Part shown: positions 4,498 to 60,149 of the stretch, one piece after another | How the letters are laid out: every line of letters begins with the position of its first letter | Position numbering within the stretch: position 1 is the first letter of the stretch | From: Luteolibacter sp. Y139 | GTDB taxonomy: Bacteria; Verrucomicrobiota; Verrucomicrobiia; Verrucomicrobiales; Akkermansiaceae | Assembly (NCBI RefSeq): GCF_038066715.1 | Contig: NZ_JBBUKT010000015.1 | Coordinates: forward strand, 1 to 64,000 | Length of the DNA stretch: 64,000 nucleotides | Direction: 5' to 3' | The notes under the pieces: model-generated | What the model was told of the DNA's origin: nothing | Database searches by the model: none | What the model saw: the letters and a program-made list of their open reading frames with translations, nothing else | Translations under genes and position numbers: made by a program

Positions 4498-5964
4498 TCA
4501 GCCGACGTAGCGCGCCTTGAGATGGGCGAGGTGGGCTTCGGGTGAGGGGGCTTTGCCGGTCGCTTGCGTGACGATCTCGGTGGGAGTGAGCACGGCGCCC
4601 TTGCTGTGGACCTTGTCGCGCAGCCAGGAGAGCAGCGGGCCGTATTCGGCCTTTGCGATGGTGGAGGCGATGTCGGGCTGGGTGTTTGCGGCGGCGAAGA
4701 GTTGGGCGGCGTTGAGGTTGCCGAGTGTGTAGGTCGGGAAGTAGCCGAGGCCGCCCATCGCCCAGTGGATGTCCTGGAGGCAGCCGTGGGCGTCGTCCGG
4801 CGGTGTCATGCCGAAGAGGTCGCGGAAGCTTTCGTTCCATGCGGCGGGCACGTCCTTGACGGCGAGCTCTCCGGAGACGAGGCGGCGCTCGAGGGCGAAG
4901 CGCAGGAGGATGTGAAGGTCGTAGGTGGCCTCGTCGGCTTCGACGCGGATGAAGGAGAACTCCGCGCGGTGGATTGCGGCGAGGAAGTCATCGAGCGAGG
5001 TGTGGGACAGCTGCGGGAAATGTTTGGCGGCGACGGGCAGCCACTTTTCCCAGAAGGGTCGCGAGCGGCCGACGTGGTTTTCCCAGAGGCGGGATTGCGA
5101 CTCGTGGATGCCGAGCGAAGCGGCTTCGCCGGAGGGCAGGCCGACTTCGCTGGAAGGCAGGCCTTGTTCGTAGAGGCCGTGGCCGGCCTCGTGCATCACG
5201 CCGAAGAGCGAGGAGGTGAAATCGCTCTCATCGTAGCGAGTGGTCAGCCGGATATCGCGCGGGCCGAGGGTGGTGCAGAAGGGATGTGCGGTGGTGTCGA
5301 TACGGCCGGCCTTGAAATCGAAGCCGAGCGATTCGGCGACCAAGGCATTGAACTCCTGCTGGGCGGCGATGGGATAGGGGCCGCCGGGAAGAGTGGCGTT
5401 GCGTTTGTTAGAGCGCTCCACGGCGGCTGCGGCGAGTTCGCGGAGCTGTGGCTTCAGGGCATCGAACAAAGAGGCGATGTTGGACGCGGTCGAGCCGCGT
5501 TCGTAAGTATCGAGCAAGGCGTCGTAGGCTTCGGCTTGGTAGCCCCAGCGCTCCGCCTTCTCACGCTCGATGCCGAGGATGGTCTCCAGATGCGGAGCGA
5601 AGGAGGAGAAGTCGGAGCGCTTGCGGGCATCGGCCCATGCGACTTTAGCCAGCGAAGACGCTTGGGCTTCTCTCGCGACAAGCTCGCCGGGCAGCTTGGT
5701 GGCGCGATCGAAATCGCGGCGCATGGCGGCGGTCAGCGCCGGTGCGGTGGCATCCGCTTCGGCGGCGGCAAGGGCGTCGCCCCAGGCGGCGGAAGTGCCG
5801 AGTTCGTGGGCGCGTTCCGAAAGCCAGGCGAGCTGATCGGCGCGCCACTCGTGGCCATCGTCCGGCAGGTAGGTTTCCTGATCCCAGCCGATGGTGGCGG
5901 CGGAGGTGGCGACGACGGCCCGCTCGCGGGCCAAGGTGCGGAGGCGATCGAGGGCGGTGCTCAC
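4498..5964 (-). CDS. M32 family metallocarboxypeptidase (carboxypeptidase Taq type)
   Basis: A zinc carboxypeptidase that removes C-terminal residues from peptides in the cytoplasm; no signal peptide is seen. The zinc motif HEAGH lies near residue 257 within VMHEAGHGLYEQGLP, followed by the family-typical GIHESQSRLWEN and by ITLRD-like DIRLTTRYDE and PTYTLGNLNAAQ segments. The 488-residue length matches the roughly 500 residues usual for M32. The frame stays open well upstream of this start, but the extra residues are arginine-rich and overlap the isochorismate synthase gene. I therefore chose GTG at 5962-5964, which gives STALDRLRTLARE at the N-terminus. The start is inferred and has no strong Shine-Dalgarno sequence. 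Confidence 0.93.
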   Translation of the reverse strand: MSTALDRLRTLARERAVVATSAATIGWDQETYLPDDGHEWRADQLAWLSERAHELGTSAAWGDALAAAEADATAPALTAAMRRDFDRATKLPGELVAREAQASSLAKVAWADARKRSDFSSFAPHLETILGIEREKAERWGYQAEAYDALLDTYERGSTASNIASLFDALKPQLRELAAAAVERSNKRNATLPGGPYPIAAQQEFNALVAESLGFDFKAGRIDTTAHPFCTTLGPRDIRLTTRYDESDFTSSLFGVMHEAGHGLYEQGLPSSEVGLPSGEAASLGIHESQSRLWENHVGRSRPFWEKWLPVAAKHFPQLSHTSLDDFLAAIHRAEFSFIRVEADEATYDLHILLRFALERRLVSGELAVKDVPAAWNESFRDLFGMTPPDDAHGCLQDIHWAMGGLGYFPTYTLGNLNAAQLFAAANTQPDIASTIAKAEYGPLLSWLRDKVHSKGAVLTPTEIVTQATGKAPSPEAHLAHLKARYVG

Positions 5965-10871: not shown

Positions 10872-13034
10872 TTACAGCGTCTGCGGGATCTTCTCGAGCG
10901 TGTAGCACTCGATGACGTCGGCTTCCTGATACTCGTTGAACTCACCGAGTCGGATACCGCATTCCATGCCCGACTTGACCTCTTCCACTTCGTCCTGGAA
11001 GCGGCGGAGGGTGGACATCTTGCCGTCGAAGACCGGCACGCCACCGCGGATGACGCGGGCGTGGGCCTTGCGATGAATCTTGCCATCCGTGACGTATGAA
11101 CCGGCGGCGCGGCCCTTCGACTTGGAGAGCTTGAAGATCATTCTCACCTCGGCGTGGCCGATGATGTTCTCGCGGGTGAGCGGCTCGAGCATGCCGAGCA
11201 TCGCCTCGCGGACCTGATCGATCAGTTCGTAAACGATCGAGTAGAGCTTCACCTGGACGCCCTCGGACTTGACCACCTTGACGGCGTTGGCCTCGACCTT
11301 GGTATTGAAGCCAAGCACCACCGCGTCGGCGGAGCTTGCCATCTGGACGTCGGCCGCAGTGATCGGACCGGCAGCAGCCACGATGATCTGGGTGGTAACC
11401 TTGTCGGACTTGATGTCGCCGATGGCCCGCTTGATCGCTTCGACCGAGCCCTGCACGTCGCACTTGAGGACGACCTTGAGGACGGCCTTGCCGGTGCCTT
11501 CGATGACGTTGGAGAAGAGGTCCTCCATGCGGCTCTTCCGGGTCAACTGGAGGCGATCGTTGCGGCGGTCAAGCTGGCGTTCATCGGCCAGCTTCTGGGC
11601 TGCGCGGATGTTGTCCATTTCGACGAGGCTGTCGCCGACGTTCGGCATCTCGTCGAAGCCAATGACTTCGACTGGGGTGCCGGGCTTGGCTTCCTTGACG
11701 GATTCGCCGCGGTCGTTGATGAGCGACTTCACCTTGCCGGCGAAGGGACCGCAGATGAAAGGAGTGCCGACCTTGAGGGTGCCGGTTTCCACGATGACCG
11801 AAGCGGTGGCGCCGCGGCCGGGCTGGACGCGTGCCTCGATGATCGAGGCGCGGGCATTGCCCTTCGGGTTGGCCTTGAGTTCGAGCACCTCGGCCTGGAG
11901 GGCGAGGAGTTCGAGCAAGCCATCGACACCGGCTCCGGTGAGAGCGGAAACTTCCACGCATTCGACGTCGCCGCCGAAGTCGACGGTCTGCAGGCCTTTC
12001 TCGGCGAGCTGGGTCTTCACCCGCATCACGTTGGCAGTCGGCAGATCGACCTTGTTGATGGCGACGATGATGGTCTTTTCGGCCTTCTTCGCGTGTTCGA
12101 TCGCTTCCAGCGTCTGCGGCATGATGCCGTCATTCGCGGCGACGACGAGCACCACGATGTCCGTGATGTCGGCACCGCGGGCGCGCATGTCGGAGAAGAT
12201 GGCGTGACCCGGAGTATCGATGAAGGTGACCGGCTTGCCCTCGCGCTCCACCTTGTAGGCGGCGACGTGCTGGGTGATGCCGCCGGCCTCGCCCTTGGTG
12301 ATCGAAGACTTGCGGATGTAGTCGAGCAGGGAGGTCTTCCCGTGGTCGACGTGGCCCATGATGGTGATGATCGGCGGGCGGAGTTGGAGTACGTCTTCCG
12401 GCTCGTCCTGGACCTTTTCCGGCTCGACGACGACTTCCTCGATCTTGTGAACGCCGCCGCCCTTTTCGCGCTTCTCGCGCTCGAAGATGAAGCCGTGGAG
12501 TTCGCAAACCTTCGCGGCCGTTTCGGGCTCGATCGCCTGATGGGGAGCGACGAAGACCTGGAGCTTGATCAGATCCGCCAGCAACACGAAGGGCTTGAGG
12601 CCCATGCGGGTGGCGAGCTCGCTGACGATGATCGGCGGCTTGATGCTGATGACGTTGCCACTGTCGCCGGATTCTTCGACGGGCGCTTCGACCGCGGCGG
12701 CTGGCGAGATGGACTCGGCTGGCGGCGGGGGAGGAGCCGGTGCCGCGGGAGCGGGTGCAGGCTTCTCCTCTTCCAGCAGCTTGGAAATGGTCGGCAACAC
12801 GGCCTTGCCCGATTGCTCGGTCTTGCGGACGCCACTGCGCTTCTTCTTTCCGCCTTCGTCGAAGAGATCAAGGGCGGCAGCCTTGGCTTTGTCGAGGGCG
12901 CTTGGTGGCGGCGGTGTGTCGGCTGCAACTTGAGCGGCTCGCTGGCGCTCGCGGCGCGTCGATGCCTTCGGTTCCTCGATCAGATCGAGAACCTTCTTTT
13001 TCGGAGGCGTGCTATCCTTGTCTTTAGGGACCAT
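10872..13034 (-). CDS. infB: Translation initiation factor IF-2
   Basis: This GTPase delivers initiator tRNA to the 30S subunit. The 720-residue protein has a short, lysine- and proline/alanine-rich N-terminal region (about 1-140), then the IF2 N-terminal subdomain. The G domain carries all GTP-binding motifs: GHVDHGKTSLLD (G1), DTPGHAIFSDMRARGA (G3) and NKVDLP (G4). Domains II to IV follow, including the C2 domain with VIRGGVPVFDGKMSTLRRF. The N-terminal extension is short compared with enterobacterial IF-2 (about 890 residues). The gene is 63 bp downstream of nusA and 92 bp upstream of rbfA. Confidence 0.98.
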   Translation of the reverse strand: MVPKDKDSTPPKKKVLDLIEEPKASTRRERQRAAQVAADTPPPPSALDKAKAAALDLFDEGGKKKRSGVRKTEQSGKAVLPTISKLLEEEKPAPAPAAPAPPPPPAESISPAAAVEAPVEESGDSGNVISIKPPIIVSELATRMGLKPFVLLADLIKLQVFVAPHQAIEPETAAKVCELHGFIFEREKREKGGGVHKIEEVVVEPEKVQDEPEDVLQLRPPIITIMGHVDHGKTSLLDYIRKSSITKGEAGGITQHVAAYKVEREGKPVTFIDTPGHAIFSDMRARGADITDIVVLVVAANDGIMPQTLEAIEHAKKAEKTIIVAINKVDLPTANVMRVKTQLAEKGLQTVDFGGDVECVEVSALTGAGVDGLLELLALQAEVLELKANPKGNARASIIEARVQPGRGATASVIVETGTLKVGTPFICGPFAGKVKSLINDRGESVKEAKPGTPVEVIGFDEMPNVGDSLVEMDNIRAAQKLADERQLDRRNDRLQLTRKSRMEDLFSNVIEGTGKAVLKVVLKCDVQGSVEAIKRAIGDIKSDKVTTQIIVAAAGPITAADVQMASSADAVVLGFNTKVEANAVKVVKSEGVQVKLYSIVYELIDQVREAMLGMLEPLTRENIIGHAEVRMIFKLSKSKGRAAGSYVTDGKIHRKAHARVIRGGVPVFDGKMSTLRRFQDEVEEVKSGMECGIRLGEFNEYQEADVIECYTLEKIPQTL

Positions 13035-13097
13035 CAGGCGTGTGTGTCGTCGTTTCGGAGCAACTGGCTCCGGGAAAAATCTGTCGAATCAATCGTA

Positions 13098-14363
13098 TCA
13101 GGCCGAAGCCGAGTGCTGCTTCGCGCGGTCGAGGATATCTTGGGCGCGCTCTTCGGTAATCTCAAGGTTGGCGGCAATGTAGTCCACCGGCATCTCCGCG
13201 ACAATATCGGCGGACATGCCACCTGCGCGGAAGAGTTTGGCGGCCAGGTCGTCGTCGAGACCGAGTTGCTCGGCCATCGAGTGGGCGGCACCGGCGATCT
13301 TCTTTTCGAATTGCTCCAGCTTGCTCTCGTCCTTGCGAACTTGGACGTCCCAGCCCATCAGGCGGGAAGACAGGCGGGCGTTCTGGCCGCGGCGGCCGAT
13401 CGCCTTGCTGAGGTCTTCCTCGTCGACGGTCACATGGACCACGCGGTTTTCCTTGTCGACGGTGATGGTGCGGAGGACGGCCGGCTTGAGGGCTTCGCGG
13501 ACGAATTCCTCCGGATCATCGCTCCAGCGGATGATGTCGACCTTCTCGTTGTTGAGCTCGCGGACGATGTTCTTCACGCGTGCGCCGCGGAGGCCGACGC
13601 AGGCGCCCACAGGGTCCACCTTGTCGTCGGTGCTGAAGACGGCGACCTTGGTGCGGTAGCCGGCTTCGCGGGCGATGCCGCGGATTTCCACGGTGCGGTC
13701 GGAGATCTCATTCACTTCCGCTTCGAAGAGGCGGCGGACGAAATTCGGGTGGCTGCGGGAGAGGATGATCTCCGGGCCGCGGCCTTCGTTTTCCACGGCC
13801 ACGACGTAGGCGCGGATGCGGTCACCGATGTTATATTCCTCGGTCTGGACGCGCTCGCGGGACGGCATGACGCCCTCGAACTTGCCGAGGTCGATGAGCA
13901 CATCGCTGCGGTCGAAGCGGCGGACGGTGCCGGAGACGATGTCGCCCGCGCGGTCCTTGAACTCCTCGTAAATCATCTCCTTCTCCGCCTGGCGGAGGCG
14001 CTGCATCATCGTCTGCTTCGCGGTCTGGACGGCGATGCGGCCGAAGTCCTTCGGCGTGACGTTGAACTCGAGGAGGTCGCCTGGTTGCGCGTCCGGCTTC
14101 TTCTTGAGCGCGGTGGCAAGGGGGACCTCGTTGAACTTGTCCTTATACTCCTCATCGGCCACGGCCGTCAGTACCGCGAAGATGCGGGTCTCGCCCTTCT
14201 TGGTGTTCACATCGGCCCGCAGGGTCTCGATGGCATCGGCCCCGGGGACCATTTTGCGATAGGCGGAAATGAAGGCGTACTCGAGCGCTGCAACGACCTT
14301 GTCGCGGTCGATGCCTTTTTCTTTCTCGTAGTAATCGATGAGGGCGACGATGTCGTTGGTCAT
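13098..14363 (-). CDS. nusA: Transcription termination/antitermination factor NusA
   Basis: NusA is an RNA polymerase-binding elongation factor. The ATG at 14361-14363 gives a 421-residue protein starting with the typical MTNDIVALIDYYEKEKGID. The domains run in order: N-terminal polymerase-binding domain (about 1-125), S1 domain (about 135-200, GDIVSGTVRRFD), then KH1 and KH2 (VGACVGLRGARVKNIVREL and LSKAIGRRGQNARLSSRL). A single short C-terminal helical repeat follows (about 365-421). The two acidic AR1/AR2 repeats of E. coli NusA are not both present. No rimP gene precedes it. Upstream in-frame codons were rejected because they encode non-homologous sequence across a hairpin-rich leader. 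Confidence 0.97.
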   Translation of the reverse strand: MTNDIVALIDYYEKEKGIDRDKVVAALEYAFISAYRKMVPGADAIETLRADVNTKKGETRIFAVLTAVADEEYKDKFNEVPLATALKKKPDAQPGDLLEFNVTPKDFGRIAVQTAKQTMMQRLRQAEKEMIYEEFKDRAGDIVSGTVRRFDRSDVLIDLGKFEGVMPSRERVQTEEYNIGDRIRAYVVAVENEGRGPEIILSRSHPNFVRRLFEAEVNEISDRTVEIRGIAREAGYRTKVAVFSTDDKVDPVGACVGLRGARVKNIVRELNNEKVDIIRWSDDPEEFVREALKPAVLRTITVDKENRVVHVTVDEEDLSKAIGRRGQNARLSSRLMGWDVQVRKDESKLEQFEKKIAGAAHSMAEQLGLDDDLAAKLFRAGGMSADIVAEMPVDYIAANLEITEERAQDILDRAKQHSASA

Positions 14364-54591: not shown

Positions 54592-54825
54592 ATGCTGCCG
54601 ATGGTTGCATCACCTGATAGTCCACAGCTCGTCGGTGCCGAGGAGTGCATCGAGCTCATCTTCCCTTGTGAAAAATCCCGGCCGGGACTGCGGACCTTCC
54701 GCCAATGGCAGGCACAGGGATACATCCCGGTCCACAGGATCGGGCGGCGCACTTACTTCGATCCGGTGCAGGTCCGCGCCGCGATCGAGCGGCGCTTCCG
54801 CATCGCTCCCGCCGAGGTTCGCTAA
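54592..54825 (+). CDS. Small helix-turn-helix (excisionase/AlpA-like) protein
   Basis: A 77-residue protein from ATG 54592, or 74 residues from ATG 54601. The core RTFRQWQAQGYIPVHRIGRRTYFDPVQVRAAIERRF has the winged-helix layout of MerR-like excisionases and phage-island activators: a helix with a Trp-Gln-Gly turn, then GRRTYF leading to a final helix. Such proteins typically regulate or assist excision and early gene expression in integrated elements. It stands 25 bp upstream of the helicase gene on the same strand. It could equally be a replication initiator subunit. Confidence 0.6.
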   Translation: MLPMVASPDSPQLVGAEECIELIFPCEKSRPGLRTFRQWQAQGYIPVHRIGRRTYFDPVQVRAAIERRFRIAPAEVR

Positions 54826-54850: not shown

Positions 54851-56209
54851 ATGCCAGATTCCCCTCAACCGATCACGCTCTCGTCCTTTGGCGAGGAGCC
54901 GGATTACTTCGAGCCCTACTCGTCACGCTATCTTGTCCGGAATGCCACGGGGCGCTGGCTGCCGCTGCTGGAGTCCGGCTACAAGCGCCACCTGCGAGCC
55001 CGCGGCTTGAAATCGAAGCCGGACGAAGGAGACGCGCTGTCGGACATCGATGCCGCCATCCTCGATGTACAGGACCACCGCGACATCTCGCACTACGGTC
55101 CCATCTGCGGGAAGAACGCGGGGCTGTTAGAAGCGAATGGCCAGCGCATCCTGGTCACCGAGGACCTGCGGTTGCCCGAGCCCGCGGCGGGATCGTGGGC
55201 GAACCTGCGGGCGGTGCTGGAGGGCCTGCTGCAAAGGGGCGAGGAGGAAGCGACCGGACGGCTCCAAGTAGCGACCTTCCACGGATGGATACGGAGCAGC
55301 GTGAAGGCCCTGCGAGCGGGCGAGCTCCAGCAGCAGCAGGCGCTCGCGCTATGCGGGCCGCCGCGCTGCGGGAAGTCCTTCCTGCAAGGCATCATCACCC
55401 ACATGCTCGGGGGCAGGGGAGCGAAGGCGGAGCGCTACTTCTCCGGCAGGACGCCCTTCAATGCCGACCTCTATGCGGCGGAGCACCTGATGCTGGAGGA
55501 TGAGCACTGCTCCACCCGCATCGAGAACCGGCTGAAGCTCGGCTCCTCGCTCAAGCAGCACACCGTCTCCACCTACCTCGGCAGCCTGCATGCGAAGGGG
55601 CGGAATGCGGTGAACCTGCCCGGCTGGTGGCGCGTGTCCATCACGCTGAATGACGATCCCGAGGCGATGATGGTGCTGCCACCGCTGGACCAGCACATCG
55701 CGGACAAGATCATCATCCTGCGTGCCTCGGTCTTCCAGTGGCCGATGCCGATGGAGAGCACCTCGGATCGCACGGGCTTCCATGCGAGGATTGTCAGCGA
55801 GATTCCCGCTTACCTGCATTGGCTGCTGCATGAGTGGCAGGCACCGCGGGAAGTGATCGATCCGCATCGCTACAATGTGGCGACGTTTCATCATCCCGAG
55901 TTGGCGGAGGCGCTGCATTGCTTCTCACCGGAGGCGGAGCTGCATGAGCTGCTCCAGCTCGCGTATGCGGATGCCGCGCTGCATCGCAGGTCAGTGGAGG
56001 CGACGGCGGCGGAGATCGAGGCGGCGGTGAGGTATCGCGATCCGGCACGTGCCGATCGTCTCTTCAGTTTCCGGAATGCGTGCAGCACTTACTTGGGAAG
56101 GCTGGTGAAGAAGTATCCGAACCAACTCGAAGCGGTGCGTGACAAGACGCACCGCTGGTGGGTCATCGATCATGGATTCCTCTCCAGCCAGCCTCCGGTG
56201 ACGCGGTGA
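54851..56209 (+). CDS. Phage/plasmid-type primase-helicase (SF3/DUF5906-like P-loop ATPase)
   Basis: A 452-residue replicative ATPase of mobile elements. Walker A is GPPRCGKS (residues 169-176) and a Walker B-like segment is EHLMLEDEHCS (about 209-219). A sensor region, WRVSITLNDDPEAMMVLPPLD, precedes IADKIIILRAS. This order is that of the superfamily 3-like helicase domain in phage and satellite primases. The N-terminal 140 residues are unassigned, and the C-terminal part (about 330-452) is helical with a winged-helix-like end. No primase active site is seen here; it is encoded separately by the next gene. A perfect 10-bp hairpin and a repeated 25-nt element overlap its 3' end. Confidence 0.75.
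   Translation: MPDSPQPITLSSFGEEPDYFEPYSSRYLVRNATGRWLPLLESGYKRHLRARGLKSKPDEGDALSDIDAAILDVQDHRDISHYGPICGKNAGLLEANGQRILVTEDLRLPEPAAGSWANLRAVLEGLLQRGEEEATGRLQVATFHGWIRSSVKALRAGELQQQQALALCGPPRCGKSFLQGIITHMLGGRGAKAERYFSGRTPFNADLYAAEHLMLEDEHCSTRIENRLKLGSSLKQHTVSTYLGSLHAKGRNAVNLPGWWRVSITLNDDPEAMMVLPPLDQHIADKIIILRASVFQWPMPMESTSDRTGFHARIVSEIPAYLHWLLHEWQAPREVIDPHRYNVATFHHPELAEALHCFSPEAELHELLQLAYADAALHRRSVEATAAEIEAAVRYRDPARADRLFSFRNACSTYLGRLVKKYPNQLEAVRDKTHRWWVIDHGFLSSQPPVTR
56131..56156. other. 10-bp perfect palindrome inside the 3' end of the helicase gene
   Basis: AGCGGTGCGT (56131-56140) pairs exactly with ACGCACCGCT (56147-56156) around a 6-nt loop. It lies within coding sequence, 43 bp before the 25-nt repeated element, so the two may form one structured site such as an origin or control region for the primase gene. 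Confidence 0.5.
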
Positions 56210-56223
56210 CACGCGAAAGTCAT
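56199..56223 (+). repeat. 25-nt element, copy 1 (inverted copy at 59044-59068)
   Basis: This element covers the helicase stop codon and the following 14 bp. It is repeated in inverted orientation 2.8 kb downstream with one mismatch in 25. Internally it holds two imperfect direct repeats of TGAC(G/A)CG. Function unknown. Confidence 0.7.
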
Positions 56224-56243
56224 ATTCTCAGGAAATAGATAAA

Positions 56244-57203
56244 ATGGCCCTCGATGTGGCGCGGCTGGAGAAGGTCCGGCACAGTCCTGCTGGCAAGATC
56301 ACCGCCCGCTGTCCGGCCTGTGCGGAAGACGGCGGCGATCGGACCGGCAATCACCTGGTGATCTTCCCCGATGAGAAATTCGCCTGCGCCGCCCGCGCGG
56401 GAGACGGGGATCACCGGAAGAGGATCATGGCGCTGGTGGGCATTCGTTCCGAAGTCACCTTCGACGCGGAGCAACGCCGCCAATGGTGGAAAGAGAAGCA
56501 TGCGACGCGGCAGCGGAGCATCGGGAAGCAGCGTCTTGCGAACTCCGCGCGGCATCGACGGCAGGAACTCATCCGACAATACGGGTGGCTTCGGGAAGAG
56601 GTGTGGGAGGATTCACCGCAACGGATCGACAGCGATCTCGTGGCGATGGACCCCGCCCATTTCCTCGGCAGCCTCTTCCTGCCGGATGATCTCCTCTGGA
56701 CCGGTGAAGTTCATCAAAGCGGCAGTGACTGGCATGCGGAGCGCTGGAAGACCTGCTCGGAGTGGGCTGCCACCAGCACACGCATCGGCCCCATGACCAC
56801 GCCCGCCGTGTGGATGCCGGGAACGATTTCCCGTGCTTCTAACAACGTGCTCAGGTCTCCGTATGTGGTCCTCGATTTCGATGGCTTCGATGGGATCAAG
56901 CCCATCACACCTGACGAGCTTTCGAGACACGTCTTGGACTCACTCGCGATCATCCGCTGGCTCCGCGAAGCCATGGCCTGGCAACTCGCCGCCATCCTCT
57001 GGACCGGAGGAAAGAGCCTCCACGCGTGGTTTCACACGCCACCGCCTGAAGTGCTGAAGAGCCTGCTCCCCGTGGCTCAATCCCTAGGCATGGACGCCGG
57101 CCTTATCGGACGGCCGGAGCATCCGTGCCGGCTATCGGGGCAGGTTCACAAAGGGAGCGGAAAGGTGTCGCGGGTGATGTGGGTCCAGGCCCGAACCCAG
57201 TAG
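56244..57203 (+). CDS. Archaeo-eukaryotic-type primase with N-terminal zinc-finger-like region
   Basis: A 319-residue protein with the layout of a mobile-element primase. An N-terminal CPAC...H...C cluster (residues about 23-49, including GDRTGNHLVIFPDEKFACAA) resembles the CHC2-type zinc finger of DNA primases. The central catalytic region has VLDFDGFDG (acidic D-x-D) and LWTGGKSLHAWF (the S-x-H motif), followed by LSGQVHKGSG. These fit the AEP primase active site that synthesises RNA or DNA primers. It lies 34 bp after the helicase. The last codons and TAG stop lie within a REP-type repeat, so the original C-terminus may have been longer. Confidence 0.7.
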   Translation: MALDVARLEKVRHSPAGKITARCPACAEDGGDRTGNHLVIFPDEKFACAARAGDGDHRKRIMALVGIRSEVTFDAEQRRQWWKEKHATRQRSIGKQRLANSARHRRQELIRQYGWLREEVWEDSPQRIDSDLVAMDPAHFLGSLFLPDDLLWTGEVHQSGSDWHAERWKTCSEWAATSTRIGPMTTPAVWMPGTISRASNNVLRSPYVVLDFDGFDGIKPITPDELSRHVLDSLAIIRWLREAMAWQLAAILWTGGKSLHAWFHTPPPEVLKSLLPVAQSLGMDAGLIGRPEHPCRLSGQVHKGSGKVSRVMWVQARTQ

Positions 57204-57266
57204 TCGAAGACCCGGACTGCGGCAGCCTGCTGCCGCTCAATGCCAGCAGCCCTGCTGCGGGGAAGG
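57195..57266 (-). repeat. REP-type element A
   Basis: Read on the minus strand this matches element C (58893-58970) almost base for base: CTTCCC(C/T)GCAGCAGGGCTG, GAGCGGCAGCAG, CTGCCGCAGTCCGGGTCT and CGACTACTGG. It can fold by pairing of its GC-rich halves. It overlaps the 3' end of the primase gene and supplies its stop codon. Confidence 0.7.
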
Positions 57267-57329
57267 ACGGGGTAGATGAGCTCCATCAGAAAGCCAGCCC
57301 AATGGACATGCCGCATCGGCTTGTGTCTG

Positions 57330-58005
57330 CTAAGCGCGTCCCGGCTGACTGACGAATTGCTTCAGGGAGTAGTATGTGGGCGTAAGCCTTCCCATACCCC
57401 CGTAAGCTGCCGTGTATTTTCCCTCAAAAGTTTCGAAACACCCGGTTCGCGAAAGTCTGTTCATGAAGTCATCAAGCTGATCCGCCGGAATAGAAAGCTC
57501 CCGTGTCAGCGTCTTCTCCAACGCATCCCAAAACTTCTGAGCCAAGGTGTAGTCATTGTCGCCGGGTGCTCGCTCGATGGTTGATGAATACCCATCCAAA
57601 ATCGAAAGCGCCCTCAGTTCACGGAAGCTCAGCTCATCGAGAATGGAAAGCAGGTCTTCATAAGCATCCGCATCGCACGAGGCATCGGTCACCGTTTGCC
57701 AGCAAGTTCGCGAACAGGACAATCTTCTCGCGCCGCCTTGTGTTTCTAGCAGCGTTCGCAGTGATGAAATACTTGTGGAGGAACTCCTCGCTACCAATGA
57801 CGTCGTTCGATAGTTGGATCTGATTGTTGGAGAGAGCCTCGAAGAATACGGCTGTCCGTTCCTTTCGGATGGCATCGACTTTTCCGGTGATCAGGACATC
57901 AACCGCTCCTCCGATTCCGGCGGGGAACAATTGAAGCAATGCTCGCACGAGTTCATGGTCGGCATACCATGCCAAGGCGGTCTCTGATTTGGTGGGCTTT
58001 TCCAT
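57330..58005 (-). pseudogene. Conserved helical protein gene with a frameshift
   Basis: Two reading frames together encode one protein of about 225 residues. The first part (ATG 58003-58005) runs from MEKPTKSETALAWYADHEL through ERTAVFFEALSNNQIQLS to AARNTRRREKIVLFANLLANG. The second part, beginning in another frame near 57690-57700, continues DASCDADAYEDLLSILDELS to the stop codon at 57330. One extra nucleotide near 57690-57700 would explain the break. The intact family, with its NTRRREK-type segment after a helical region and a GIGGAVDVL hydrophobic stretch, is widespread in bacteria but of unknown function. It may be a real pseudogene, a programmed shift or a sequencing error. Confidence 0.65.
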
Positions 58006-58041
58006 GAGGCCGGATTGGAACCGGGGAGTGAGGTCGTCGTC

Positions 58042-58050
58042 TGCTATAAT
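58042..58050 (+). promoter_or_regulatory. Extended -10 promoter-like site
   Basis: TGCTATAAT contains a perfect TATAAT (58045-58050) with the extended TGn motif. No convincing -35 lies upstream. It points towards the RAYT gene, 191 bp downstream, with REP element B in between. Confidence 0.4.
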
Positions 58051-58076
58051 CGGCCGGACGATTTCGACGCATCCGG

Positions 58077-58146
58077 CAGGGTGCTTCCCCGCAACAGGGC
58101 TGCTGCACTGCAGTCCGGGTCTCCGACTGCTGGATCAGGCAGTCCA
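58077..58146 (+). repeat. REP-type element B
   Basis: It shares GGGTGCTTCCC(C/T)GCA, CAGGGCTGCTG and CAGTCCGGGTCTCCGACT with element C but lacks the middle segment of about 23 nt. It is followed by GCTGGATCAGGCAGTCC. It lies in the spacer upstream of the RAYT gene in the same orientation as C. Confidence 0.65.
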
Positions 58147-58240
58147 TATGTCCGGTCCGCTCGTTTGATTTCGATCTTAGTAACTCCCCATTGGTGTCTA
58201 TTCACTTGAACATCTATGGGACGGGAGGCAAAGTGCTTCA

Positions 58241-58825
58241 GTGATCCCCCAGTCATCCCTTCCTGACGAAGAGACCTGCAAAGGCAGCCGCGATTGGCCT
58301 CATGCTCCACCTCATCGTCTCCAGTCCGCCGGGGTCTATTTCCTTACTGCCCGAACTTCTGAGCGTCGGCACTTGCTAGCAGAAGACTCCGCCAAGGATT
58401 GGTTCCAAGACACCTTGTTGAAGTTGGCCGAGGAGAAAGGCTGGAGGCTCGAAGCATGGTGCATCCTCTCCAATCACTATCACCTCGTCGCACATAGCCC
58501 GAAGGACGGCGGCGCTTCCTTGGGGCAGCTAATCCAGCAGCTCCACGGTCTAACAACCAAGGAGCTGAATCGACGCGATGGCATGGAGGGAAGAACGAGG
58601 CTTTGGCAAAACTTCAGGGAGACGTTGCTCGTGGAACAAGCCTCCTACCTGGCCCGGCTCCACTATGTGCATCAGAATGCGGTGCATCACCGGCTTGTGA
58701 AGACCGGTTCCGAGTGGAAATGGTGTAGCGCCTTGGCATTCAAGAAAGCCGCTACCCCGGCATGGGTGAAGACGGTGGCTAGTTTTAGATATGACCGGAT
58801 TGCGGAGTTGGATGAGGATGGGTGA
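58241..58825 (+). CDS. REP-associated tyrosine transposase (RAYT, Y1/HUH family)
   Basis: A 194-residue single-strand-specific nuclease/transposase of the IS200/IS605-related TnpA-REP group. The HUH motif is HYH at residues 79-81 in CILSNHYHLVAH. The YVHQNAVHHRLV segment, normally Y(I/V)HxNPV, is at about 144-155. LWQNFRETLLVE lies between them. RAYTs are thought to mobilise or maintain REP sequences. Related REP-type repeats lie 95 bp upstream and 68 bp downstream, with a third about 1 kb upstream in the opposite orientation. The GTG start is preceded by GGGAGG 13 nt upstream. Confidence 0.9.
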   Translation: MIPQSSLPDEETCKGSRDWPHAPPHRLQSAGVYFLTARTSERRHLLAEDSAKDWFQDTLLKLAEEKGWRLEAWCILSNHYHLVAHSPKDGGASLGQLIQQLHGLTTKELNRRDGMEGRTRLWQNFRETLLVEQASYLARLHYVHQNAVHHRLVKTGSEWKWCSALAFKKAATPAWVKTVASFRYDRIAELDEDG

Positions 58826-58892
58826 TGGGTTTGAATGGTTAGACGGGGCTGAGGGGGCGGCTTGGGCGGGCAGTTTGGCGAGGGGCAGCCAC

Positions 58893-58970
58893 ACGGGTGC
58901 TTCCCTGCAGCAGGGCTGCTGGCTTCGAGCGGCAGCAGGGCTGCCGCAGTCCGGGTCTCCGACTACTGGT
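58893..58970 (+). repeat. REP-type element C
   Basis: The longest of the three related repeats, with two GC-rich imperfect palindromes (CAGCAGGGCTGCTG and GGCAGCAGGGCTGCC) followed by the CAGTCCGGGTCTCCGACT tail. It lies 67 bp after the RAYT stop codon. Elements B and C bracket the transposase in the same orientation. Confidence 0.7.
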
Positions 58971-59043
58971 GTCGGGGTCTCTGACGACTTGGGCGACGCG
59001 GCCAAGTGTTTGAGCCACCCGCGGAGAAAAATTCCCCGCAAAC

Positions 59044-59068
59044 ATGACTTTCGCGCGTCACCGCGTCA
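59044..59068 (-). repeat. 25-nt element, copy 2 (inverted copy of 56199-56223)
   Basis: The reverse complement of this segment equals 56199-56223 except for one base (G for A at the thirteenth position). It lies in a non-coding spacer between the RAYT/REP cluster and the glycosyltransferase gene. It could mark the right end of a transposed segment. Confidence 0.7.
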
Positions 59069-59126
59069 TCGCAGGCCGGTTCCAGCGCCTTTGCGATGCC
59101 TCAGGGCTTCGCTGGCCTGACTCACC

Positions 59127-59888
59127 TTATTCCTTCCAATACTCCTCCACCCACGGTGCGGGGAGCACGCGGTGGTGGATCTTGCCGGTGGTGACGCCGT
59201 TGACGGCGTCGGGCGGATCGGGCTTGCCGTGGAAGACGAGGAACTTGGCGCCCTTCGGTTTCTTGGGTGGGACGAAGAGATTGAGCGGGAAGGGCGGCCG
59301 GACGTTGAACTTGAAGCTGCGGACCCATTCTTCCGGCCACCAGTAGCGCTCCTTCATGGCGTAGGTGAGGAAGGCCTGCTCGGTCTGGAAGATGGAGCGG
59401 TCCTGGGCGCGGTCCATCTCGCGGAGGAAGGTATCGTAGATGTACTGCGACTTGCCGGCCTCGAAGCGGAAGATGGAGGAGTTCCCGATCTCGGGGCGCT
59501 TGTTCAGGATCTGTTTCCGGCGCTCCCACCAGTTGTGGATGATGCAGTTCTTGCCCGGCTGGTAGTCGAAGAGGCAGTCGATGTCATCGAGGATGACGAG
59601 GTCGAGATCGAGGAAGAGGGTGGGGCCTTCGAGGTTGGCGAAGCCGTCGCGGGTCATCACCAGCTTGAGGAAGACATTTGGCCACTTGGCCTGGGTGACG
59701 CCGGGGTTTTCCGGGAAGGGCAGGGTCTCGATGCCTTCGATCAGGCCTTCGGTATTATCTGTGAGGCACACGAAGCGGAAGGGCCGCTTGAGGTGGCGGC
59801 CGATCGAGCGGTAGAGGATATTGACGTAACGGGACGGGTATCGCGTCCCCCACTTCATGCAGATGATATTGACGGGTGCTCCGGGCAT
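59127..59888 (-). CDS. Glycosyltransferase (nucleotide-diphospho-sugar transferase fold)
   Basis: A 253-residue cytoplasmic enzyme from ATG 59886-59888. VNIICMKWGTRYPSRYVNILY begins a Rossmann-like GT-A fold. The metal-binding D-x-D lies in TLFLDLDLVILDDID (about 110-125). Later signatures are NSSIFRFEAG, FQTEQAFLTYAM and the terminal histidines HGKPDPPDA and HHRVLP. The pattern resembles glycosyltransferase family 8-like proteins of capsule or lipopolysaccharide synthesis. The acceptor is unknown. Upstream in-frame residues (to 59987) are Ser/Pro-rich and unlikely to be translated. Confidence 0.82.
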   Translation of the reverse strand: MPGAPVNIICMKWGTRYPSRYVNILYRSIGRHLKRPFRFVCLTDNTEGLIEGIETLPFPENPGVTQAKWPNVFLKLVMTRDGFANLEGPTLFLDLDLVILDDIDCLFDYQPGKNCIIHNWWERRKQILNKRPEIGNSSIFRFEAGKSQYIYDTFLREMDRAQDRSIFQTEQAFLTYAMKERYWWPEEWVRSFKFNVRPPFPLNLFVPPKKPKGAKFLVFHGKPDPPDAVNGVTTGKIHHRVLPAPWVEEYWKE

Positions 59889-59970
59889 CGGGTCGTGTGG
59901 CGGCCGGGAGCTTGGCGGCCGGGCGGGGCGGGGGAAAGGCGAATCCGACGGGGCCCTCGAAGAGCAGGAA

Positions 59971-60000
59971 CCGCGAATGGACGCCAATGGACGCGAATGG
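59971..60000. repeat. Three tandem copies of a 10-bp unit
   Basis: CCGCGAATGG, ACGCCAATGG and ACGCGAATGG follow each other directly in the spacer between glycosyltransferase and SDR genes. I recall similar CGCGAATGGA arrays as common dispersed repeats in related genomes; this is memory, not a search. Confidence 0.6.
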
Positions 60001-60074
60001 ATCCAGAAAGGCGGGGATTCCGGTTGGGTTTGCTGAGACCGGTAGCCTCGGTGCTTGGTCGCCGCTGGGAATTG

Positions 60075-60137
60075 ACCACGGATGTCACGGATGGTTTTGA
60101 GGATGCCTTGATCCGTGGCATCCGCGTTATCCGTGGT
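60075..60137. repeat. Inverted-repeat element built from ACGGAT words
   Basis: ACCACGGAT (60075-60083) pairs with ATCCGTGGT (60129-60137). Further ACGGATG and ATCCGTGG/CATCCG words lie inside, giving a long imperfect hairpin. It sits 13 bp beyond the 3' end of the SDR gene and may act as a terminator or be a dispersed repeat. Confidence 0.5.
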
Positions 60138-60149
60138 TCATTCCAGGGC

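Follow-up and report, generated by a model that had tools for sequence, protein, structure and literature searches.

The repeat pair and the genes around it

The window, by which we mean the whole stretch of 64,000 nucleotides analysed from Luteolibacter sp. Y139 (contig NZ_JBBUKT010000015.1, positions 1 to 64,000), contains a gene for a predicted initiator-helicase and one for a probable primase, together with two long inverted repeats that are discussed here as the predicted arms of a replication origin. The order along the locus is: a helix-turn-helix (HTH) gene, the helicase, arm 1, the primase, a repetitive extragenic palindromic (REP) element, a frameshifted gene, a second REP, a REP-associated tyrosine transposase (RAYT), a third REP, arm 2 and a glycosyltransferase-like gene. 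Arm 1 (56199-56223, + strand) and its inverted copy arm 2 (59044-59068, - strand) are identical at 24 of 25 positions in opposite orientation, as a preliminary description of this DNA had reported. The likeness extends further than was described: a weaker, ungapped homology spans 49 nt (56188-56236 and 59031-59079) with 40 identical positions, the 24 nt that flank the 25-mer core contributing 16 matches. Each arm consists of tandem TGAC(G/A) iterons at a spacing of 8 bp. Also in agreement with the earlier account, the helicase stop codon TGA (56207-56209) lies inside arm 1, the second TGAC of which begins with that same TGA, and the pair brackets the primase, the frameshifted gene and the RAYT/REP cluster. 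The primase start follows arm 1 at a distance of 20 nt, and an A+T-rich stretch of 20 nt adjoins this arm; the region between the arms is gene-bearing and 2.8 kb long; and 58 bp separate arm 2 from the stop codon of the glycosyltransferase-like gene (59127-59987).

When up to three mismatches are allowed, the 25-mer occurs at these two sites only, both in the window and in the genome of the strain (7,106,054 bases, 31 contigs). No match was obtained in 100 dinucleotide shuffles of the window, and the 25-mer is absent from the 17 other Luteolibacter genomes scanned. A common intergenic repeat scattered over many unrelated sites, which the preliminary description had named as the outcome that would speak against it, is thereby ruled out. 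The same description had pointed to a perfect 10-bp hairpin beside arm 1. The hairpin exists (56131-56156, no strand, 6-nt loop, within the 3' coding sequence of the helicase), but it is not clearly a part of the origin: hairpins of this kind number seven in the window, two of them overlapping, and 0-4 per shuffle in 10 shuffles, so that this one has no special link to the repeat.

The helicase gene occupies 54851..56209 on the + strand, with the start codon picked by eye. The AlphaFold model of the protein (predicted local distance difference test, pLDDT, 84) had its best Foldseek match in the C-terminal region of NrS-1 (E 2e-12), with further matches to D5/E5 of vaccinia and monkeypox virus (MPXV), and VIA-align gave Z 19.8 to NrS-1 and Z 15.9/15.8 to the SaPI5 primase-helicase for model residues 1-433. 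Judged by this modelled fold, the protein is an SF3 (D5/P4/SaPI-type) initiator-helicase with a C-terminal region predicted to bind DNA. The window helicase itself matched no Pfam or NCBIfam family; its homologues at loci L018, L020, L084 and L085 reach DUF5906 just under the cut-off. Relatives were found in 23 of 387 genomes of the phylum at E 1e-20, the closest being that of L021, and none was found at E 1e-5 in the plasmid and phage collections. The family is encoded at 34 viral contig loci of IMG/VR (L110-L143) and is therefore one that phages share.

The primase (56244..57203, + strand) is probably of the archaeo-eukaryotic primase (AEP) type, as suggested by a Cys-rich N-terminus and by LDFDG, GGKSLHAWF and PEHPCRLPG motifs seen by eye in an alignment. 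Comparison with PDB profiles gave a weak match to a PrimPol AEP domain (E 0.29), no Pfam family was matched, and a single-sequence structure model reached pLDDT 36. The open reading frames (ORFs) of both helicase and primase are intact.

Iterons at the helicase stop codon in related loci

A region of 420 nt around the helicase stop was compared across 38 non-redundant chromosomal loci, with 200 dinucleotide shuffles and 590 other windows from the same loci as controls. Inverted tandem 5-mer iterons were present in 17 of the 38 loci (shuffle mean 0.40, maximum 2; controls 12 of 590; Fisher p 1e-15), and tandem TGAC units 7-10 bp apart in 16 (shuffle mean 1.72, maximum 6; controls 34 of 590; Fisher p 1e-9). 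With the window locus left out, tandem TGAC remains in 15 of 37 loci (p 8e-9 relative to the controls). Across the phylum, many relatives of the helicase have tandem 7-10-bp iterons in inverted pairs at this position, often based on TGAC. The TGAC pair starts at most 10 nt from the stop in seven of the 16 TGAC loci: at -10 in the window, -2 in L019, +4 in L084, -2 in L085, -9 in L087, +1 in L098 and +2 in L107. Counted from the final base of the stop codon, the two arms start at -2/+75 in L019, +4/+94 in L084, -2/+98 in L085, +51/+166 in L020, +68/+136 in L095 and +102/+220 in L102, as compared with -10/+2848 in the window. The loop of six convergent pairs measures 56-106 nt, and its A+T content is above the locus mean in all eight relatives' loci measured. 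The same build is found with other units, namely GACACC (L023), GGTGAAG (L083), GCGGAGG (L093) and AGGGGT (L094). In L021 ATGACGCGGTGACGC occurs twice past the helicase, in opposite orientations, and these 15 nt are the same as in window arm 2.

A related longer motif, GTGACAnnGTGACAGC linked to a block resembling GGAAAAGTTTTC, occurs in five copies at L018:2122-4405, in both orientations and mostly within primase and helicase coding sequence. An exact 20-mer scan of viral contigs returned one locus, L168, with a single copy within an ORF and no partner arm; an exact 16-mer scan returned 29 loci (L169-L197) with one copy each. All of these were presumed to be chance matches. Separately, arrays of the 8-bp iteron TGACGCAC were seen in L022 at 350-366 and 4974-4998; since these lie near both ends of a helicase-bearing contig of 5.5 kb, they suggest that this contig is a circular or multicopy element.

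The layout of the window, with the primase between the arms, recurs in L075 (genome G039). There the order is a TIGR01613 (P4 family) helicase, an arm, a primase and an arm, with 1041 nt between the arms and no RAYT among them. Three TGAC units begin 3 nt past the helicase stop, the inverted arm lies 29 nt past the primase stop, and the arms contain an inverted inner block, GGAACAAAATTCTTCC / GGAAGAATTTTGTTCC. The primase is 48 percent identical to that of the window and has the same orientation. In the window the 49-nt arms are 2794 nt apart; the RAYT/REP cluster (57190-58976) takes up 1787 nt of this, leaving 1007 nt. Because this remainder is near the L075 spacing, the cluster looks like a later insertion at the 3' end of the primase gene, which would have widened the gap from ~1.0 to 2.8 kb. 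The simplest order of events would then be an L075-like origin with a nested primase, followed by insertion of the RAYT/REP cluster.

A candidate origin and its alternatives

We consider it likely that a small integrated helicase-primase module has its replication origin here, with the two 25-mers as its inverted iteron arms. This reading is favoured because inverted tandem iterons recur at the helicase stop across relatives and because the predicted helicase fold is like that of the NrS-1, D5 and SaPI5 initiators; an origin with iteron-like TGAC units had been one of several options in the preliminary description, and the comparison of the relatives' helicase loci supports it. By analogy with the Rep proteins of Staphylococcus aureus pathogenicity islands (SaPIs) and phage-inducible chromosomal islands (PICIs), with Cch2 of the staphylococcal cassette chromosome mec (SCCmec) and with plasmid pRN1, we infer that the helicase would bind the TGAC iterons through its C-terminal domain and form a hexamer at each of the inverted arms. 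It would then melt the DNA between or beside the arms and load, after which the adjacent primase would prime both strands. Most relatives have their arms within ~110 nt, and the window and L075 have the primase gene between them. The repeats, their position at the stop codon, the recurrence of such iterons in the family and the overlap of a REP with the primase stop are observed, and the SF3 fold is predicted; DNA binding by the protein, melting, activity as an origin and the sequence of insertions are proposed.

Origin sites at a distance have a precedent in phage P4, in which two separated iteron sites, ori1 and crr, are needed together, one of them next to the initiator gene at its 3' end; the P4 alpha protein is a fused one and its iteron is unlike that of the window. 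The systems closest to that of the window include the SaPI/PICI arrangement of primase, rep and origin. SaPI Rep recognises, via its C-terminal domain, an iteron origin directly downstream of its own gene (PMC7581432), and PMC6092414 describes PICI origins as always having two iteron sets that flank an AT-rich region 3' of rep. The window is similar in its SF3 helicase with a SaPI5-like predicted fold, in its separate primase and in two iteron sets directly 3' of the helicase gene, arm 1 at the stop and arm 2 inverted (PMC6092414, PMC7581432). It differs in that the arms are inverted TGAC pairs 2.8 kb apart and in that the primase comes after the helicase, in the space between the arms. In SCCmec, Cch2 likewise binds, through its C-terminal domain, to repeats right downstream of its own gene, but there direct rather than inverted repeats mattered for binding, and the primase is another one (PMC7581432). 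In pRN1, a stem of 21 nt with a loop of 58 nt, 3' of the AEP-SF3-winged-helix gene, is required for replication (PMC4234260); the window shares with it inverted arms and a loop placed immediately 3' of an SF3 replication gene, whereas the pRN1 arms form one stem-loop without TGAC iterons, the primase is fused to the helicase and the plasmid is archaeal. The window origin is therefore best read as a putative variant of a known origin type, SaPI/PICI-like in layout but with the primase between its arms.

The repeat pair and its genes look like a small, selfish, integrated helicase-primase module in a Verrucomicrobiota chromosome. The glycosyltransferase-like gene is present in 17 of 18 genomes of the genus, and because the region past it differs from genome to genome (12 compared), the borders of the element could not be set; no empty site was found in these 12 genomes. 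Tyrosine integrases (PF00589) gave four matches in the genome, all on other contigs, and serine recombinases were not searched. The integrase and flanking att sites that mark a whole PICI were, within this scope, not found for the module, nor were helper-phage functions.

Several observations weigh against an origin at this locus. By the test used, 21 of the 38 helicase loci lack inverted tandem iterons. With 2.8 kb between its arms, the window itself does not pass this short-range inverted test either. The control windows are mostly coding and the test windows largely intergenic, and the shuffles correct for composition only. Only two of the seven nearest primase loci, the window and L075, have the primase flanked by arms; the remaining five do not. 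The helicase of L075 belongs to an SF3 subfamily other than that of the window. Finally, arms 2.8 kb apart might fail to cooperate, so that the origin may be dead.

Decay is the substance of a further explanation, in which primase and RAYT insertions killed a former origin, the module is inert and the arms survive by recency. It would account for the RAYT/REP cluster between the arms, for the frameshifted gene inside and for the lack of a tyrosine integrase on the contig (serine recombinases being outside that search), but we hold it to be quite unlikely: both ORFs are intact, L075 has a primase in the loop with no RAYT between its arms, and the 24 of 25 matches in the core as against 16 of 24 in the flanks suggest constraint on the core. 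The arms might instead be operator sites for the HTH protein, or for the helicase itself, that regulate transcription of the primase and its neighbours and not replication. An HTH gene does open the module and arm 1 lies just upstream of the primase start; arm 2, however, is beyond the RAYT cluster and near no evident module promoter, and the relatives have their pair past the helicase, on either side of an A+T-richer loop, often with no primase downstream, as in SaPI/PICI origins (PMC6092414). Operators in place of an origin are thus improbable, though regulation and origin function are compatible and not exclusive.

That the region 56.2-59.1 kb is a mobile segment, with the pair as its recombination or transposon ends or as sites for its inversion, as the preliminary description had also proposed, is the least credible view and very improbable. 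Near-perfect inverted repeats do bracket a Y1 transposase gene. Yet arm 1 is internal to the module, located between helicase and primase at the stop codon of the former, the arms are without further copies in the genome, and related loci keep their pairs within ~110 nt and beside the helicase rather than at the ends of an element. RAYTs act on REPs, and the REPs here are a different repeat. An invertible segment finds no tyrosine recombinase on the contig, in a search that did not cover serine recombinases, and the primase orientation is the same in L075, the sole locus with this layout. Within an origin reading, we regard as rather doubtful a distinct Verrucomicrobiota architecture in which the inverted arms bracket the primase purposely, the initiator loops the DNA across 1-3 kb as at P4 ori/crr, the primase gene itself serves as origin loop and flexible spacing allowed the RAYT insertion to be tolerated.

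With the pair as probable origin arms, an unexplained repeat becomes a candidate origin, and a sequence rule is suggested by which inverted TGAC tandem iterons at SF3 helicase stop codons would mark origins of helicase-primase elements across Verrucomicrobiota. The primase-in-loop layout raises the question whether SF3 initiators act on arms kilobases apart. Little on mobile elements of Verrucomicrobiota was found in the literature searched, and no publication joining DUF5906/SF3 helicases, iterons, inverted repeats and origins; most subscription journals were outside its coverage, so the pattern may have been published.

The RAYT/REP cluster and other neighbours

The cluster between primase and arm 2 resembles known RAYT/REP systems in having a Y1 transposase gene with flanking inverted REPs and a REP motif found elsewhere in the genome; it differs in being inserted within the module. 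The RAYT (58241..58825, + strand) matches NCBIfam NF047646 with 86.2 bits (cut-off 80) and Pfam Y1_Tnp with 31.7 bits (cut-off 23). On its left lie one or more REPs at 57190..57268 (- strand; inverted repeats I2/I3, REP motif 57197-57217), which provide the TAG (57201-57203) that ends the primase reading frame, followed by the frameshifted gene (57330..58005, - strand), which consists of two overlapping ORFs with no family found, and by a REP at 58081..58133 (+ strand). One or more further REPs follow at 58897..58976 (+ strand), inverted relative to those at 57190-57268. At up to three mismatches the REP motif has 17 matches in the genome, three on this contig and the rest on eight others, as compared with five for the motif read backwards. 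The 25-mer had been considered as part of this system and was rejected, the REP motif being a different sequence with copies on other contigs. Across 57400-58600 the G+C content is 0.52-0.57, against ~0.62 in the surroundings. As a whole, 57190-58976 with its inverted outer REPs looks like a RAYT unit with a broken cargo gene.

The small HTH protein (77 aa; 54592..54825, + strand) is excisionase- or regulator-like by two weak matches, to HTH_17 (E 0.0039, below cut-off) and to phrog_66, "excisionase and transcriptional regulator" (E 0.0066). Downstream, between two genes at 60068-60144, the window has a 26-nt inverted repeat (81 percent) with a 25-nt loop.

Homologues of the primase are 47-62 percent identical to it and partnered with other helicases, and a viral scan with the window primase gave no match. 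A further primase relative, L202, has a single TGAC pair that lacks an inverted partner. IncQ-like primase sites were considered and dropped for want of support. Repeats of other kinds accompany several relatives. Related primase genes lie amid several palindromes of 43-52 nt (L071:9580-9627, 11630-11677 and 12435-13154; L073:9298-9346, 10935-10983 and 11898-11946; L074:8381-8573), in which 4-bp iterons (CGTC/CATC) surround a core resembling CCCCTAGGGG. In L071, where the primase adjoins an AAA_25-type ATPase, there are at least six palindrome copies, some ~190 nt apart. At L077:8527-8625 and L078:2693-2838, inverted GGACGGG / GGGACG iteron pairs directly follow the conserved Cys-rich N-terminal domain of the primase relatives.

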